From NCBI RefSeq assembly GCF_022814725.1, contig NZ_CP093442.1:62001-126000 (forward strand): DNA of 64,000 nucleotides, read 5' to 3'. The position numbers and the translations under genes were made by a program. Source of the DNA: Bdellovibrio reynosensis (lineage in GTDB: Bacteria; Bdellovibrionota; Bdellovibrionia; Bdellovibrionales; Bdellovibrionaceae). The notes beneath the pieces are model-generated. The model was not told the origin of the DNA. It saw nothing but the letters and a program-made list of their open reading frames with translations, and did no database searches. Shown piece after piece: positions 29,101 to 38,230 of the stretch. The stretch's first letter is position 1, and each line of letters begins with the position of its first letter.

Positions 29101-29832
29101 ATGACAGTTTTAGTAAGATTCTCGCTAATTGTGGCCATATTTTTTGTTGTTTCTTGCCAAAGCAAGGAAGAGCCGACCTCGAGAAAACACCAGCTTTCAA
29201 AGGGCTTTGTTCTTTTAGATCAAGGCCGGTACTCGGAAGCGATTTTATATTTTGAAAATCTTGCGAAAAAAGACCCGCACTTTCACGTGCGTTTGGCGCT
29301 TGCTTCGGCGTATTCAGCGCGTGCTCAGATTGACACAAAAAAGCTTATTTCCGTTGTCGCTTTAACTGAAATTTCTTTAGAGAAAGATTTTGCCAAAACC
29401 AATTTAGAACAATCTACGGTGCAAGTGCTGCAAGCTTTAGAAGAGTTTCACACCGCATGGTCGATGCTTCCTGTATTATCTGGTTCTGCACGGGATGATA
29501 TTCGTAAGGCGCTAGTGGTTTTAAAGGATGATCCTAAACCATCGGTGCGCTTGTATTCCGCAGCTTTGCGAATTCTGCAAATTAATGGAGTTATTGCAGA
29601 AGGCTTAGATCAGTTTACAGTTTTAAATACTAAAAAGACTTGTTCGAAAAACTTGAAGCCCTATTTTGATTGGTCCTTACGTATATTTGACGAGCTTATT
29701 ATATTAACTCACGACATCGAACTTGCTCGCCCTGAAAATCACAAAGCTTGTGCTGATGCACGCGCACGTTTGGCGTCGATAAAAAATGAAGCATTAAAAG
29801 TCTCTTGGCCCAAGGATAATCAATGCTTCTAA
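29101..29832 (+). CDS. TPR-like lipoprotein
   Basis: 243 residues. Lipobox FVVSC/QSK at Cys19, so lipid anchored. The N-terminal mature part reads as one or two tetratricopeptide-like helices (FVLLDQGRYSEAILYFENLAKKDPHFHVRLALASAYSARAQ without close repeats). The remainder is helical with late cysteines (KKTCSKN, HKACADA, NQCF). No ribosome binding site is evident before the ATG. First of three overlapping genes, which suggests an envelope complex. Confidence 0.7.
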   Translation: MTVLVRFSLIVAIFFVVSCQSKEEPTSRKHQLSKGFVLLDQGRYSEAILYFENLAKKDPHFHVRLALASAYSARAQIDTKKLISVVALTEISLEKDFAKTNLEQSTVQVLQALEEFHTAWSMLPVLSGSARDDIRKALVVLKDDPKPSVRLYSAALRILQINGVIAEGLDQFTVLNTKKTCSKNLKPYFDWSLRIFDELIILTHDIELARPENHKACADARARLASIKNEALKVSWPKDNQCF

Positions 29833-30827
29833 AAATAATCCTCCTAAGTCTATTTGCTTGTTCCGCTTATGCTTTGCCTGCGGCTTTGCGCGAAGGTAAC
29901 ACTCGCTTTTTAGCGAGATCTTTAGGGAGTGCTTGTTACACCATGGACAGCGTGCAAAGGGGGCTTCCGTGTAATCCCGCCGCAGCAGCGAAAGAAAAGA
30001 AAGCCCGCTTTGATGGCGACATTTTCTTAGGTAGTAACGTCGAGTATTTAAAAGAAGCAGAAAGTTTATTGTCTGATCAGGCAACTCCAGAAGCGCTGGC
30101 TAGCTTTCTATCCCGCCGGGAAACCGTCGAAGGGGAGCTTTCGATTGAAGCTTCCTTTCAGGCATCGACATGGGGAATTTCGTTTGAACCATATCGTTTA
30201 GTAGCAGTCACTACTTTTACCAATCCGTCTTTACCGATGATCGATTTAGTCATCGCTGAAGAACAAAGCGTGAAGGCGCAAATTGCAAGCTATGTGCACG
30301 ATAATTTTTATGCCGGCGTTCAAGCTCGCTACACCCATGTGAAATTTCTTGGCCAGTACTTTTCAATTGCTGAAGCATTTTCTGCGCAAAGTGATGAAAC
30401 GTTCGCTACGGAAACTCAAGAGCTCTTATATTTAGAACCTGGATTATTATTTTCTTGGGAAGAAAAACCGTGGCAACCGCAAATTTCTGCCGTGTTAGCT
30501 CAGTGGGGCGTCACTAGTCGTAAAACCGAAGAATATCCTATTCAGCCTGAAGGATTGTTAGGGGCCTCGATTAAACCGTTAGTGCCGTTGGGATTGTTAG
30601 AACTGGGTGTGCAATTGCAGATCAACTCTGAAACTGAGAATGCCCGCGATGCTTTTCGTCTGGGGTTAGCTTATCACCTGGGGATCTTGCAGACCGTTTT
30701 TAGTGCTTCAGAAAATGATCACACTGCCGCCTTTTTATTAACACTTGAACAATGCACAACGGGGCTTTCTTATTGGACCCAAGGATCTGATCGGGGAGTG
30801 TTTGTTCAGCTGGGTGTAACTTTATGA
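29823..30827 (+). CDS. Predicted outer-membrane beta-barrel protein
   Basis: 334 residues. Overlaps the upstream gene by 10 bases; AAGGA seven bases before ATG. Signal peptide MLLKIILLSLFACSAYA. Amphipathic strands follow, such as GELSIEASFQASTWGISFEPYRLVAV, FYAGVQARYTHVKFLG, LEPGLLFSWEEKPWQPQISAVLAQWG, and the last segment GVFVQLGVTL ends in a pattern typical for barrels, although not in Phe. Early cysteines (SACYTMDSVQRGLPC) may form a disulfide. No family recognised. Confidence 0.65.
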   Translation: MLLKIILLSLFACSAYALPAALREGNTRFLARSLGSACYTMDSVQRGLPCNPAAAAKEKKARFDGDIFLGSNVEYLKEAESLLSDQATPEALASFLSRRETVEGELSIEASFQASTWGISFEPYRLVAVTTFTNPSLPMIDLVIAEEQSVKAQIASYVHDNFYAGVQARYTHVKFLGQYFSIAEAFSAQSDETFATETQELLYLEPGLLFSWEEKPWQPQISAVLAQWGVTSRKTEEYPIQPEGLLGASIKPLVPLGLLELGVQLQINSETENARDAFRLGLAYHLGILQTVFSASENDHTAAFLLTLEQCTTGLSYWTQGSDRGVFVQLGVTL

Positions 30828-31369
30828 GGATTCTGCTCACTCTACTACTTTTTATAGGTATTCCCTTTTCGGCCTCTGCTGAAGAATCCTTTCCCGCGAA
30901 TTGGACAGAGTTTAAAGACTATGTTGAACAAGAAGAAGCAGAACATTCGCGCAAGGGTTTAGCGTACATGATTTCTGGAAGCTTAGCGGCCTTAGGAGGC
31001 TCGGTCGGCTATCAAGAGTCTGAGGAGATTCTAAGCCGCACTATTTTTGCTATCACATCTAATCTCGGTCTTACGGCAATTGGTATCGGAGCTACCTATT
31101 ATTTCACCGGCACCGAAGCGAATGCATTTTATTATTCCATTGAACAATCTTCTTTAAGTTTAAAACAAAAGAATGAAGTGCTTATGAGGTACTTAAAATA
31201 CCAAAAGGAAGAAAAAGAACGTCAGCGATGGATTCGTGTTGCTACCCATAGTCTGGTTGCGGTGGCGAATTTTTATAGTGGTAGTCGGGAAGACAACGCG
31301 CAGATTCGATCGATGTTTTATTTCTTGGGTGCTGCGAACACTTTATTGGCTCTAAGCTATAGTTTTTAA
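30824..31369 (+). CDS. Exported or membrane protein, unknown
   Basis: 181 residues. ATG overlaps the previous stop (ATGA). Signal peptide MRILLTLLLFIGIPFSASA. Two or three hydrophobic stretches (LAYMISGSLAALGGSVGY, TIFAITSNLGLTAIGIGATYYF, MFYFLGAANTLLALSYSF) alternate with a charged helix (YLKYQKEEKERQRW). Probably works with the two genes upstream. Its stop shares four bases (TTAA) with the stop of the convergent fibre gene. Confidence 0.65.
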   Translation: MRILLTLLLFIGIPFSASAEESFPANWTEFKDYVEQEEAEHSRKGLAYMISGSLAALGGSVGYQESEEILSRTIFAITSNLGLTAIGIGATYYFTGTEANAFYYSIEQSSLSLKQKNEVLMRYLKYQKEEKERQRWIRVATHSLVAVANFYSGSREDNAQIRSMFYFLGAANTLLALSYSF

Positions 31370-33387
31370 TAGTTCATTCGTTTGCAACAGTACACGTTTC
31401 TTGTGTTCGTTTGCAAAACGTCAGCTGTGTCTGGAGGACTGTTACAGAGTACGGTCGTTACGTACCCTCCACCGTAGGCTGAATTTGTCCAAGCAGAGTG
31501 ACCAGCGATCATCTTAGTGTCCCTGCACGCGTGAAAAAGTTGAGAAGGCTCACAAAGGTCTGCTTGAGCATCACCACAGGTGATGATGCTATCATTGAAG
31601 TTTTTTACTACGTTTTCATTTCGAATACAGAATGCGTTTCCCTTATTAACCTTCGTCCATCCGGATTCGCAACCTTTCTTAAGTTTCCACTTAAGGTTGG
31701 TGCCGTCATACACAAGAATATCACCATCAGAGAGGCCCGCTACATCAATGGGCTTCCCTTGAAGCTTTGTGATAGTAGGTGAAGGGTAGGAACCTGATAA
31801 ATCCCCGGTCGCGGACCCTGCGGGCGTACGCGCATCGCTAAATCGCGCATCATCACCAGCCGCCACAGTCCCAGCTGCAGTTCCGACATTAATGCTAATA
31901 ATAGGAGTGGTTGTGCCATTGGCAACGCTCACAAAGGAATTGCCTGGAGAAACGTTCGTTACAGTTCCAAATCCAGCGCTGTCAGTGCCGCACTCCCAAC
32001 GAGAGGTCGTACTATTCCACTTTAAGATCTGTCCGTCAGAACATGCGACGTTGTTAGGTTTATAGGTCAGGTATTTAGCAGCGGAATTGGTAATATCACC
32101 ATAATCCAGAACGACAGCCCCAGTTTTAGTAGCGACTGACGTTACTGGATAGGCGATAGCGGCATTAGCCGCCGCAGTCAATCGTCCTTGGGCATCAACA
32201 GTAAAAGTGCTGACTGACGTTGAAGAGCCAAACGAGCCTGCAGTGACTGCAGTATTCGCTAAAGAGATTGTCCCCGTTGCTGTGATCGGGCCCCCAGAAA
32301 GACCTGTTCCAGTGGCAACGGAAGTCACCGTTCCACCCGTATTTCCATCGGCGGCTGGCACCCATTTGGTGCCATCATATTTCAAAACTTTTCCGGAGGA
32401 TAAACCCGTCGTATCAATCGCGACACCTTTGATTTTGTCTACGGTTAACGCGGCCGTTGTTCCGCTCACGTCGCCAGCCACCAAAAGATTGATAGCCTGA
32501 CATTGAAAAGAGTTGGAAACAGAATTCCAATAAGCGGTTTGATGGGTTGCGCAATTTGCACTGGCAACAGCAGAATTAAAAGCTGCCGTCGTTTGATAGG
32601 TGGCGAGAGTTGAATTTAAATTAGCGACATCAGCGATAGCAATGGCGGAACTTTGCCAAGCACCTGCATTGTATTTCAAGAACTGACCATCTGTGCCGGC
32701 AGGTAAAGAGTTAGTTGGACTAGAACAAACGAAGTTCGTTCCATTCCAAGAAGCAAATTGTCCAGCAGAACACGTTGGCATATTAGAAGTTTTTAAATAT
32801 GCCGTTGAAGATCCGTCACCCAAACTTAAAAGAGCTGCGGCTTGCGCATTCGTAAGTGCAGGGATGTTTGATCCATCCACACGAAGTAAGTTTGCAGAAG
32901 AGTAGTTATCAAGCTTTGCAGCTACTTCAGCATTTTTACTTTCAGTAGCAAATGGAACTGCTTTTAATTTTTGACTAGAGAAATCAACCCATCCCGAACC
33001 GTCATGGAAAGAAATTTTCAAGTTTCTTTCATCACCAGAAGTCGGGGAGTAAGTAGCTCCGCCGGAACAAGGTAAGGAAGTTTTATTAGAAACTAGATGA
33101 TCTACGTTTGTAGCGCCACCGGCAGAATAAAGTTTTGTACCGCTACCTAAAACCAAATGGAATGCGCCATTGGATTGACTCATGTTCACGCCATCAATTT
33201 GTTCGCGGTATATAACACATGTATCGTCGGGGCTTGTGATGGTTAGGATGAAACTGACAGTAGAACTAGAAAAGGCTGTGCCATCAGGCTTAATGATTTT
33301 ACCTGATACGTTGTATCCCTCTGCAAAGACAGCGAGGGGATAAACTACATTCAAAATGAGTAGTCCAAGGCATTTAATAAGTTTCAT
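31366..33387 (-). CDS. Phage-tail-fibre-like secreted adhesin (MAT-like)
   Basis: 673 residues from ATG 33387 with AGGTGG upstream; a second in-frame start at 33423 has no site. Signal peptide MKLIKCLGLLILNVVYPLAVFA. N-terminal domain of about 150 residues with GKIIKPDGTAFSS, then a repetitive shaft of tail-fibre type units: AGDVSGTTAALTVDKIKGV, TGTGLSGGPITATGTISLA, GSATGDLSGSYPSPTITKLQ and 'GLSSGKVLKYDGTKWVP'. The final 110 residues are Cys-rich (GWTKVNKGNAFCIRN, DLCEPSQLFHACRD, VYCCKRMNY), a likely lectin-like tip. This mosaic matches the Bdellovibrio adhesive trimeric fibre class. Prey or surface recognition is inferred. Confidence 0.8.
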   Translation of the reverse strand: MKLIKCLGLLILNVVYPLAVFAEGYNVSGKIIKPDGTAFSSSTVSFILTITSPDDTCVIYREQIDGVNMSQSNGAFHLVLGSGTKLYSAGGATNVDHLVSNKTSLPCSGGATYSPTSGDERNLKISFHDGSGWVDFSSQKLKAVPFATESKNAEVAAKLDNYSSANLLRVDGSNIPALTNAQAAALLSLGDGSSTAYLKTSNMPTCSAGQFASWNGTNFVCSSPTNSLPAGTDGQFLKYNAGAWQSSAIAIADVANLNSTLATYQTTAAFNSAVASANCATHQTAYWNSVSNSFQCQAINLLVAGDVSGTTAALTVDKIKGVAIDTTGLSSGKVLKYDGTKWVPAADGNTGGTVTSVATGTGLSGGPITATGTISLANTAVTAGSFGSSTSVSTFTVDAQGRLTAAANAAIAYPVTSVATKTGAVVLDYGDITNSAAKYLTYKPNNVACSDGQILKWNSTTSRWECGTDSAGFGTVTNVSPGNSFVSVANGTTTPIISINVGTAAGTVAAGDDARFSDARTPAGSATGDLSGSYPSPTITKLQGKPIDVAGLSDGDILVYDGTNLKWKLKKGCESGWTKVNKGNAFCIRNENVVKNFNDSIITCGDAQADLCEPSQLFHACRDTKMIAGHSAWTNSAYGGGYVTTVLCNSPPDTADVLQTNTRNVYCCKRMNY

Positions 33388-33440
33388 TCCACCTATCTTT
33401 TCGGCCAGGGAAGTATAAATCATTAGTAATTTGAGGAAAA

Positions 33441-33719
33441 TTATTCGGCAGCAGAATCTAAAATCAATTTATAGCCGATAGATGAAGTTTTAACGGTGCT
33501 TCTGTCTTCTTTTGAAACGACAGCTTTCAATTTATATCCATTCACAGAAGTGGTTTCGATGTGACTGGCAAGCTCAACTTGGGCTTGCGGTTTATTACTG
33601 TTGGTATTGGTGTCTTCATCCGGGGTCAGTCCACGCAACATCATCACCTGGGGGACTACGTCCGCACAGCCGGTTAAGAGCAACGCAAAGATTACGCTTA
33701 GATTACCAATGAATCTCAT
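33441..33719 (-). CDS. Small lipoprotein next to the fibre gene
   Basis: 92 residues, lipobox LLTGC/ADV at Cys18, so lipid anchored. Mature part is short: MMLRGLTPDEDTNTNSN (polar), then a single beta-rich stretch VELASHIETTSVNGYKLKAVV and SIGYKLILDSAAE. No family recognised. It sits 53 bases upstream of the fibre start on the same strand, so it is probably co-transcribed and may anchor or chaperone the fibre; this is by position only. Confidence 0.65.
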   Translation of the reverse strand: MRFIGNLSVIFALLLTGCADVVPQVMMLRGLTPDEDTNTNSNKPQAQVELASHIETTSVNGYKLKAVVSKEDRSTVKTSSIGYKLILDSAAE

Positions 33720-35903: not shown

Positions 35904-37007
35904 TCATTCTTCGTCGGTTCCTTCCGCTCTTTCTTCTGGCCTAAACATTAAAAAATAGTAGTCAACAGTCGAACAACCTGGCTCCATTCCAGATAGCCAA
36001 TCAATCACACAATTTTTTACAGTCTCGTCGCTAGTTAATCCAGATTCTAATGTTCGCACATCCGGCAGTTTTTTCCCCTCAATCTTATAGATTTGTTCTC
36101 TAGGTAAATTATTTAAACTATATTGATCGAAATTAAGGCTGAGCGGTAAATCTTCCTTGGGTAACAGTAGGCCAGGGCTTACCATGAGCGTCACGGTGTC
36201 ATCCTTAAAAAGAACATAATCTGACGTCCTAAAAAAGTATTTTTCGACTAAAAATAGGCTATTATAGGAGGTTGTTAACTTATAGAAAATTCTAAAAAGT
36301 GAAAATTCAAAAAGGTTCTGGCCAACATTGAATTTAAAGCTCTTTTTGCAGCTAACAGAAGTTAAATACTTATCAAGAAAAATATACTCGTCATCTGAAT
36401 TGATTTCCCGACTTTGAATAGCTTGAAGTGATAGCATTAACATTTGATCACATTCGATCGCTTTCTTGCGCTGAAATTCTCGTAAGCCGCTTTCATTAAA
36501 TGTAGCGATTAAATTGGAGACCGTTTCAATATCCTTTAAATACAGTGCTAGAAATGTATTTTTTGTGACTTCATCTTCAAGCTCGAAAGACATATCACGA
36601 AGTTCAGTAATTTTTTCTTTTTTTCGATATGACCGGTTTAAAAGTACTTTGTTAGAAAAATGGAGCCATTTTTCATGCTCAGAAGAAGAATATAATGAGA
36701 GTCCTCTCTCAAATAAAATAGTCAAAACTTCTTTATCACTTCGATTTAATGCTATTGATAATAAGCTATTTTTTTTGTCGAGATTGAAGTTTAAGTTGTG
36801 GGGATTCTTATCTAAAAAAGAAGCCAATTGCTTGGCATTTCCAAACTTAACCAAATCGACAATAGTTTTCTGTTCCTGGTTTAGTTTAAAAGGTGTGTGT
36901 TCATTCAAAGAGTCAGTCTTCACCTTGACGGCTTCATTCGTAGCTTTTTTGAAACTGCAGGAAGATACAAAGAGAATTAAAAAGAAAGGGAGTATTATTT
37001 TATACAC
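35904..37007 (-). CDS. Lipoprotein with ankyrin-like segment, copy 2
   Basis: 367 residues; GTG start at 37007 with AGAGGA upstream. Lipobox FVSSC/SFK at Cys17. Residues about 40-110 read as ankyrin-like helices (TIVDLVKFGNAKQLASFLDKN; SLLSIALNRSDKEVLTILFERG). The rest is helical and polar without recognisable family. It overlaps the upstream lipoprotein gene by 13 bases, and both share plan and cysteine pattern, so they look like diverged duplicates. Envelope location; binding partner unknown. Confidence 0.65.
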   Translation of the reverse strand: MYKIILPFFLILFVSSCSFKKATNEAVKVKTDSLNEHTPFKLNQEQKTIVDLVKFGNAKQLASFLDKNPHNLNFNLDKKNSLLSIALNRSDKEVLTILFERGLSLYSSSEHEKWLHFSNKVLLNRSYRKKEKITELRDMSFELEDEVTKNTFLALYLKDIETVSNLIATFNESGLREFQRKKAIECDQMLMLSLQAIQSREINSDDEYIFLDKYLTSVSCKKSFKFNVGQNLFEFSLFRIFYKLTTSYNSLFLVEKYFFRTSDYVLFKDDTVTLMVSPGLLLPKEDLPLSLNFDQYSLNNLPREQIYKIEGKKLPDVRTLESGLTSDETVKNCVIDWLSGMEPGCSTVDYYFLMFRPEERAEGTDEE

Positions 37008-37960
37008 TTTAAATCCTCTTCCTTTAAACCCATTTCCGACATGACTGTCGCACCGATAATTTTGTTTTCGTTTTTGCAGTGTTCGTCAACTTCATCGAGT
37101 GCACCGGCGTAGGTAAGCCCTATTTCGTGCGCGCATTCCTCGGTAGTTTTATATCGAGTCGGAATTGATTTAAATTCACGTCTTAGTATCTGTTTAAAAA
37201 AAGATTCCCAAATATTGAATTCACTGCGAGAAATACATCGAGCTTTCCATTTAAGGAAAATCAACGGATCAATTGACTTTATTTTAAAATTTTCTACTTG
37301 AGCATTTAGAGCTAAAGCTGAAAACAGAGGAAAATTAAAAAAATCATGTTTAAACTGAAACATAAATTCAGTGGAAAGAATTTGGTTTCTCTCTTGTTCA
37401 GTAATTGATTGCAGCGTTTCGCGACAAACCGGTGAATTTAGAAAGGTGATGATTTTCGTTACACTTGATTCTTCACTCTCTGTCCAGCGCTCTTGCATTA
37501 GTTTATCTATAATAGCTTTGCAGCCTCTTTGAGAAGCCTTGGTGATCTTATTATAGGCCAATGCATATTCTATATCTGAGGAAGTTTTTTTCTGAAGTTC
37601 ATCAATAATTTCTTTTTGAGGTCCGCTTAAGAATTGCACCGACGTTTCTAAAGAATACTCAAATGGCGAAAAGCCTTTGCTTTGAAGGTATCGTAGCAAG
37701 ACTAAATCTTTTCTTTCTGCTGCTAAATCGGTTAGGTTTGAATCCTTACCGCGTATCTGAACTTTAAAAAGGGATAGGTCGTTTTGGTCTTCCAGGAAAT
37801 TAAGAAGTTCTTCTGTTGACGAATTGATGAGGTCGAATTCAGCTGTATAACTCGTTGCCAAAACTTTGGACTCAATTCTCTTTGAATCCTTAGAAAAGGA
37901 ACAGCCCCCTGTCAGGCAGATGGAAAAAAATAATGTTAAAAGGATTAAAATCGGTCTCAT
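36995..37960 (-). CDS. Lipoprotein with ankyrin-like segment, copy 1
   Basis: 321 residues from ATG 37960 (MRPILILLTLFFSICL); an ATG at 37969 and a TTG at 37978 are alternatives and none has a clear ribosome binding site. Lipobox LTGGC/SFS at Cys20. ELLNFLEDQNDLSLFKVQ and DLAAERKDLVLLRYLQSKGF resemble ankyrin-type helix pairs, as in the downstream copy. Remaining part helical with Cys in QRGCKAIIDK, SPVCRETL and KARCISR. Function unknown. Confidence 0.65.
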   Translation of the reverse strand: MRPILILLTLFFSICLTGGCSFSKDSKRIESKVLATSYTAEFDLINSSTEELLNFLEDQNDLSLFKVQIRGKDSNLTDLAAERKDLVLLRYLQSKGFSPFEYSLETSVQFLSGPQKEIIDELQKKTSSDIEYALAYNKITKASQRGCKAIIDKLMQERWTESEESSVTKIITFLNSPVCRETLQSITEQERNQILSTEFMFQFKHDFFNFPLFSALALNAQVENFKIKSIDPLIFLKWKARCISRSEFNIWESFFKQILRREFKSIPTRYKTTEECAHEIGLTYAGALDEVDEHCKNENKIIGATVMSEMGLKEEDLKCIK

Positions 37961-38230
37961 AGGACTCATAAGGAGCAAAAATTATGCTTTAAAGGGAAGG
38001 AATTACTACGAAAAGAGATGTTTAAAGGCTGGACAGTGACAGATATAGGCACCACATGGACCTCTGACCTAATCCCTAGTTTCTGGCAAATTAAAAATCC
38101 AAAATGAATTTAAATGATTTGTAGGAATTCAAATTCTTCAATTAAAAGTTCATCAATATTCTATCCGACGCAAATCACCTTCTTGAAAAACCAAATGCCC
38201 CTTGAGTTAATTAATGCAAAAGAGGTGAGT

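Follow-up and report, generated by a model that had tools for sequence, protein, structure and literature searches.

We found that a gene for a 92-residue lipoprotein in Bdellovibrio reynosensis is paired with the gene for a mosaic adhesive trimer (MAT) fibre, and that this lipoprotein belongs to a family whose members accompany MAT genes in related genomes. We refer to the family as MAL, a working name for MAT-associated lipoprotein. The partnership between MAL and fibre is well supported, and there is strong support for MALs in general being genetic partners of MATs. As far as could be checked, this partnership is previously undescribed. The main text of the MAT paper (PMC10769870) mentions no lipoprotein, and a mention elsewhere may have gone unnoticed. 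The upstream lipoprotein genes were not named under their likely Bd numbers in a literature search, and the paper examined on MATs together with lipoproteins deals with prey lipoproteins. The window, meaning the whole stretch of 64,000 nucleotides that was analysed, contains the following features of the pair:

31366..33387, minus strand: MAT fibre gene, 673 residues, stop codon included, orthologue of HD100 Bd2740
33322..33387, minus strand: fibre signal peptide, residues 1–22, cleavage predicted by eye after VFA
32908..33321, minus strand: MAT N-terminal domain, about residues 23–160 (NF053851.1 Bdello_MAT_N, E 2.3e-50, residues 20–170)
31684..32907, minus strand: fibre shaft, about residues 161–568, with G[QKD]xL[KV][YW][ND]...W repeats, from sequence comparison
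31771..31806, minus strand: GDLSGSYPSPTI motif, single copy, residues 528–539, from sequence
31369..31674, minus strand: Cys-rich tip, residues 572–673, C-type-lectin fold by homology to 8OKS
33441..33719, minus strand: MAL-family small lipoprotein, 92 residues
33669..33719, minus strand: lipoprotein signal peptide, residues 1–17, lipobox LTGC, lipid Cys18, from sequence
33513..33551, minus strand: MAL repeat 1 (TSVNGYKLKAVVS), from family alignment, a strand in the low-confidence model
33453..33488, minus strand: MAL repeat 2 (TSSIGYKLILDS), from family alignment, a strand in the low-confidence model

The fibre and its relation to Bd2740

An earlier note on this DNA had described a 673-residue product with a signal peptide and a Cys-rich tip, and the open reading frame on the minus strand agrees with that description. 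The signal peptide reads MKLIKCLGLLILNVVYPLAVFA. We place the start at the ATG at 33387 because an AGGTGG ribosome-binding site lies ahead of it at 33389–33394; the program-made list of open reading frames begins the protein 12 codons earlier. The kinship that the note proposed with the chimeric fibre proteins of Bdellovibrio was borne out. Members of the MAT superfamily carry a conserved, β-rich N-domain of ~130 residues directly after the signal peptide and, beyond a fibre shaft, a variable C-terminal tip or an S74 domain. The fibre has such an N-domain, for which the curated mosaic adhesive trimer model NF053851.1 gives 170.6 bits (cut-off 60) over residues 20–170, and it ends in a tip of this kind. 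A Pfam search with the fibre protein gave no acceptable match and none to the S74 domain, which assigns it to the NS74 type.

The tip contains 8 Cys within ~102 residues. Comparison with known fibre adhesins showed it to be homologous to the C-type-lectin tip of Bd2740, a MAT fibre of B. bacteriovorus HD100 whose tip has been crystallised: a single-sequence phmmer search matched one solved structure in the PDB, 8OKS (E 2.2e-5), and a profile built without Bd2740 led to the same structure (E 5.2e-18). The fibre tip in the HD100 genome is identical to the 8OKS chain. Gene order around HD100 Bd2740 is the same as around the window fibre, and on this synteny we regard the two as orthologues. The single-sequence AlphaFold2 model of the tip (pLDDT 42) was too poor for a fold search. 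Given the N-domain match, the homology to 8OKS and the synteny with Bd2740, the fibre is almost certainly a new member of the known MAT family. This genome encodes 20 MAT N-domains and HD100 encodes 21, the latter being the count given by Caulton et al. 2024 (PMC10769870).

The N-domains of Bd2740 and the window fibre are 59% identical, their shafts are alike in style, and Bd2740 also has an upstream 92-residue lipoprotein, with the same spacing as in the window pair. Their tips are homologous C-type lectins with conserved Cys, yet only 26% identical, so the ligand of the window fibre may differ. Across orthologues, identity to the window fibre ranges from 34 to 59% in the N-domain and from 25 to 43% in the tip. 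Positive selection on the tip found no support, with dN/dS of the fibre at 0.09–0.15, highest in the tip, and dS near saturation. Deletion of Bd2740 slightly slows predation on E. coli, and the only known protein sharing its trimeric lectin-fold arrangement is Mtd of a Bordetella phage (Caulton et al. 2024, PMC10769870). Mtd is a trimeric C-type-lectin receptor binder, but a phage protein, and no sequence match between it and the window fibre was found. Elsewhere in this genome, two MATs (L060:5148-6665 and L066:3552-5621) have tips that resemble each other closely (SCGAF.FHN.KDGGSY...) but differ in N-domain and in lipoprotein, a clear case of tip exchange.

The low-complexity shaft had been credited in the earlier note with repeats of GDLSGSYPSPTI. 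The shaft is indeed repetitive, but in another motif: GDLSGSYPSPTI occurs once, and G[QKD]x[LA][KVS][YW][ND]...W occurs four times, at residues 234, 332, 452 and 555. None of 20,000 shuffles of the shaft reached even two copies, a result to be read in the knowledge that the motif was defined after the sequence had been seen. Tandem Repeats Finder reported no DNA repeat at the fibre locus, and a search of genome contigs returned distant shaft matches only. Between MAT loci of the same genome, stretches of shaft are up to 74–76% identical. Residues 547–574 match PHROG 13853, and other tail-protein PHROGs match nearby, all of them weakly.

The MAL family and its pairing with MAT genes

The lipoprotein gene was found where the earlier note had placed it, directly upstream of the fibre gene on the same strand. 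Its product carries the lipobox LTGC, 53 bp separate it from the fibre start, and no terminator-like site was found between the two genes on the minus strand. MALs are laid out as a lipobox with its Cys, a CSxEAxIxxL or CSDVTPQVxxL motif, a variable linker of ~25–35 residues and a C-terminus with two copies of TxxGYxVxxxV. These two repeats are the only strands in the single-sequence AlphaFold2 model of the window lipoprotein (pLDDT 54). The family has no acceptable match in Pfam, NCBIfam or the PDB. In E. coli, a +2 residue other than Asp predicts an outer-membrane location under the Lol rule. The window lipoprotein reads LTGC-A, and across the family the residue after the lipid Cys is Ser in 77 of 90 MALs and Asp in none of the 90; by this rule MALs are predicted to reside in the outer membrane.

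Extended MALs of 187, 198 and 212 residues keep both ends and have a domain inserted between them. They share the N-terminal motif and the C-terminal repeats with the window lipoprotein and differ by the insertion, which in one case is Big_1-like, below the cut-off. Their genes lie directly upstream of Bd3182-type MATs (4-bp overlap) or divergently near Bd2872-type MATs. Separately, three related species encode lipoproteins of ~1,330–1,430 residues in which the lipid Cys leads into a MAL-like motif (L049:9432-13715, also L048 and L104); in the one that was scanned, an Ig-like domain and RCC1 repeats come next.

At this locus, lipoprotein and fibre are gained or lost as a unit: the two genes occur together in eight species, are both absent from seven and never occur singly. 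The pair sits between the same neighbours in the eight species, with fewer neighbours kept in G013, and in the seven species with empty sites both neighbours are intact, 82–154 bp apart. A search of 60 relatives gave clear lipoprotein homologues in seven genomes, always just upstream of the fibre, and these are the seven genomes with a fibre-tip homologue. Two other lipoprotein matches, both weak (E 0.009), lie within lipoproteins that are large and unrelated, and a weak tip match in G016 (E 0.007) comes without the lipoprotein.

The question raised in the earlier note, whether the lipoprotein accompanies fibre genes elsewhere, is answered strongly in the affirmative by profile searches, which were genome-wide although the profile seeds came from beside MATs. 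A profile built from the clear homologues and their paralogues identified four MALs in this genome and six in HD100, all of which adjoin MAT genes. The HD100 partners include Bd2740, Bd2734 and a MAT whose size and position match Bd2439; apart from Bd2740, the Bd numbers were assigned from size and order. A wider profile of 30 sequences found MALs in 49 of 66 genomes of the family and in 51 of 141 genomes of the order, 50 of these 51 also having MATs; among the 41 genomes without a MAT match, the one MAL match is a 35-residue fragment. Of the 91 distinct members whose surroundings were read, 71 are immediate neighbours of a MAT gene: 59 have a MAT after them on the same strand, 14 have one before them and 20 have neither, two being counted twice. 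The commonest spacing is a 4-bp stop/start overlap (12/59). Adjacency by chance would be ~1%, since MATs make up ~20 of roughly 3,500 genes, and p-values for adjacency are only indicative because the genomes are related.

Two other gene groups in the window drew attention. The genes at 29101–31369, convergent with the fibre, encode a TPR lipoprotein with a weak Slam TPR match, a 334-residue protein and a small membrane protein. The 334-residue protein has a barrel-like C-terminal strand; 20 of 24 genomes in the genus encode it, irrespective of whether they have the fibre pair. We considered these genes as a dedicated MAT exporter and dropped the idea, since there are genomes that have them but not the pair, and one that has the pair but lacks them. 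At 35904–37978 lie two adjacent genes for lipoproteins of 367 and 327 residues. Their sequence is ankyrin-like, Pfam gave no acceptable match for them, and the two recur at the same locus in G019 (L223).

MAL type and fibre N-domain class

MAL type tracks the type of the fibre N-domain. Across 48 complete pairs, distances between MALs correlate with those between N-domains (rho 0.60) and hardly with those between tips (0.09); the values are 0.62 and 0.05 in 29 non-redundant pairs. The correlation falls smoothly along the fibre gene (0.60, 0.44, 0.27, 0.10), so linkage alone could contribute to it, and it is mainly for this reason that we do not claim binding. In a tree of 41 N-domains, the presence of an upstream MAL clusters, with 4 changes against 8.2 when shuffled (0 of 500 shuffles as low). 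In this genome and HD100 together, every non-classical N-domain (13/13, counting L060, whose long branch makes its tree position unsure) has a nearby MAL or extended MAL, and no classical N-domain (0/28) has a MAL directly upstream. The idea that MALs accompany non-S74 MATs only was dropped, because HD100 MALs also accompany MATs with S74-type coiled-coil ends.

In many relatives a further MAL, of GLVSGSTQ type, stands beside classical MAT arrays or, at a conserved site, by itself. It is encoded directly downstream of such arrays at L099:732-4196 and at L157, L158, L159, L164 and others. This type may be a shared partner of classical MATs, which may have a single MAL in common, encoded at a site of its own. 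It seems to have been lost from this genome, which speaks against its being essential. Also in this genome, pyrimidine-rich, low-complexity DNA lies next to a tandem MAT array (L050:920-3400; G000:C1:3168920-3171400), with a truncated 506-residue MAT ending in NQSINQSIKQAS repeats and a 352-residue gene; in relatives this site is occupied by a solo GLVSGSTQ-type lipoprotein. The site looks like decay or repeat expansion of the array.

How MAL may act on the fibre

MAT fibres are exposed at the surface, their C-terminus facing outward (PMC10769870). Given that they have a Sec signal only and are nevertheless surface-displayed, an outer-membrane lipoprotein specific for the N-domain would be the simplest holder. 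The two genes form a unit, and we lean, by a little, towards MAL being dedicated to the MAT N-domain, either as its anchor in the outer membrane or as its partner in assembly. The larger gene encodes a MAT fibre, secreted and presumably trimeric, whose C-type-lectin tip would face outward to contact a putative prey-surface epitope while its conserved N-domain would remain at the predator surface. The smaller gene would supply the lipoprotein cognate to it, destined for the outer membrane and produced shortly ahead of the fibre. MAL would be set in that membrane by its lipid, a flexible linker would follow, and the two short β repeats may bind the fibre N-domain and so keep the fibre at the surface or assemble it there. 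Anchoring as such is plausible, with the balance about even. The broader picture, in which MAL is the surface element that holds MAT fibres, each non-classical N-domain forms a swappable unit with its cognate MAL and tips are exchanged freely, is tentative and slightly the less probable side of an even call.

Several observations count against the anchor or partner reading. The smooth decay along the fibre gene is what linkage with recombination at the 3′ end would also give; classical MATs, the majority, are without an upstream MAL of their own; some 20 of the 91 MALs lack an adjoining detectable MAT; and the lipoprotein model, built from a single sequence, is of low quality (pLDDT 54). The chief rival to anchoring is a role in export or trimer assembly, with MAL a dedicated N-domain partner in periplasmic export, folding or trimerisation and not the final anchor. 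We consider this unlikely, though with an appreciable chance of being right. It fits the N-domain correlation equally well, an upstream, overlapping MAL gene would have the partner made first, and MATs, with no barrel of their own beyond a Sec signal, would need an export factor. However, MAL is small, mostly linker and two short repeats, unlike known periplasmic chaperones, and the predicted lipid anchor in the outer membrane suits tethering at least as well.

It is improbable that the two are simply co-regulated surface proteins without direct contact, their N-domain correlation arising from DNA adjacency. Solo MALs and the gradual decay with distance would be expected on that account, but the pairing persists when paralogues duplicate and when the genes move, across genera, to sites whose flanks are unrelated, the pairs come and go as units, and MAL is tied to the N-domain class. 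A prophage origin, with the fibre a tail-fibre remnant and the lipoprotein a moron or spanin, has next to no chance. Phage tail fibres with GDLSG-type shafts share the shaft motif and the weak PHROG tail matches with the window fibre. Unlike them, the window fibre is cell-secreted, has a MAT N-domain and is co-encoded with a lipoprotein. The spanin or Rz-like matches of the lipoprotein fall below the cut-off (16.7 bits against 80; PHROG E 0.16), and that assignment was rejected. Both proteins have signal peptides, no phage genes lie nearby among the open reading frames read, and the curated N-domain has ~20 paralogues; the N-domain and the conserved chromosomal synteny already refute this origin.

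The reading of MAL as an anchor or assembly partner bears on how the predator holds its MAT fibres, which are thought to serve Bdellovibrio in prey recognition and handling. According to Caulton et al. (PMC10769870), identification of the surface element for the MAT N-domain awaits further study. Candidates in HD100 are the genes that immediately precede Bd2740, Bd2734, Bd2439 and Bd3182. These four are among the six MATs whose tip structures have been solved; Bd2439 and Bd3182 were matched by size and position only. An order-wide lipoprotein family tied to MAT genes and to their N-domain, not their tip, offers a concrete, testable candidate for this surface element.
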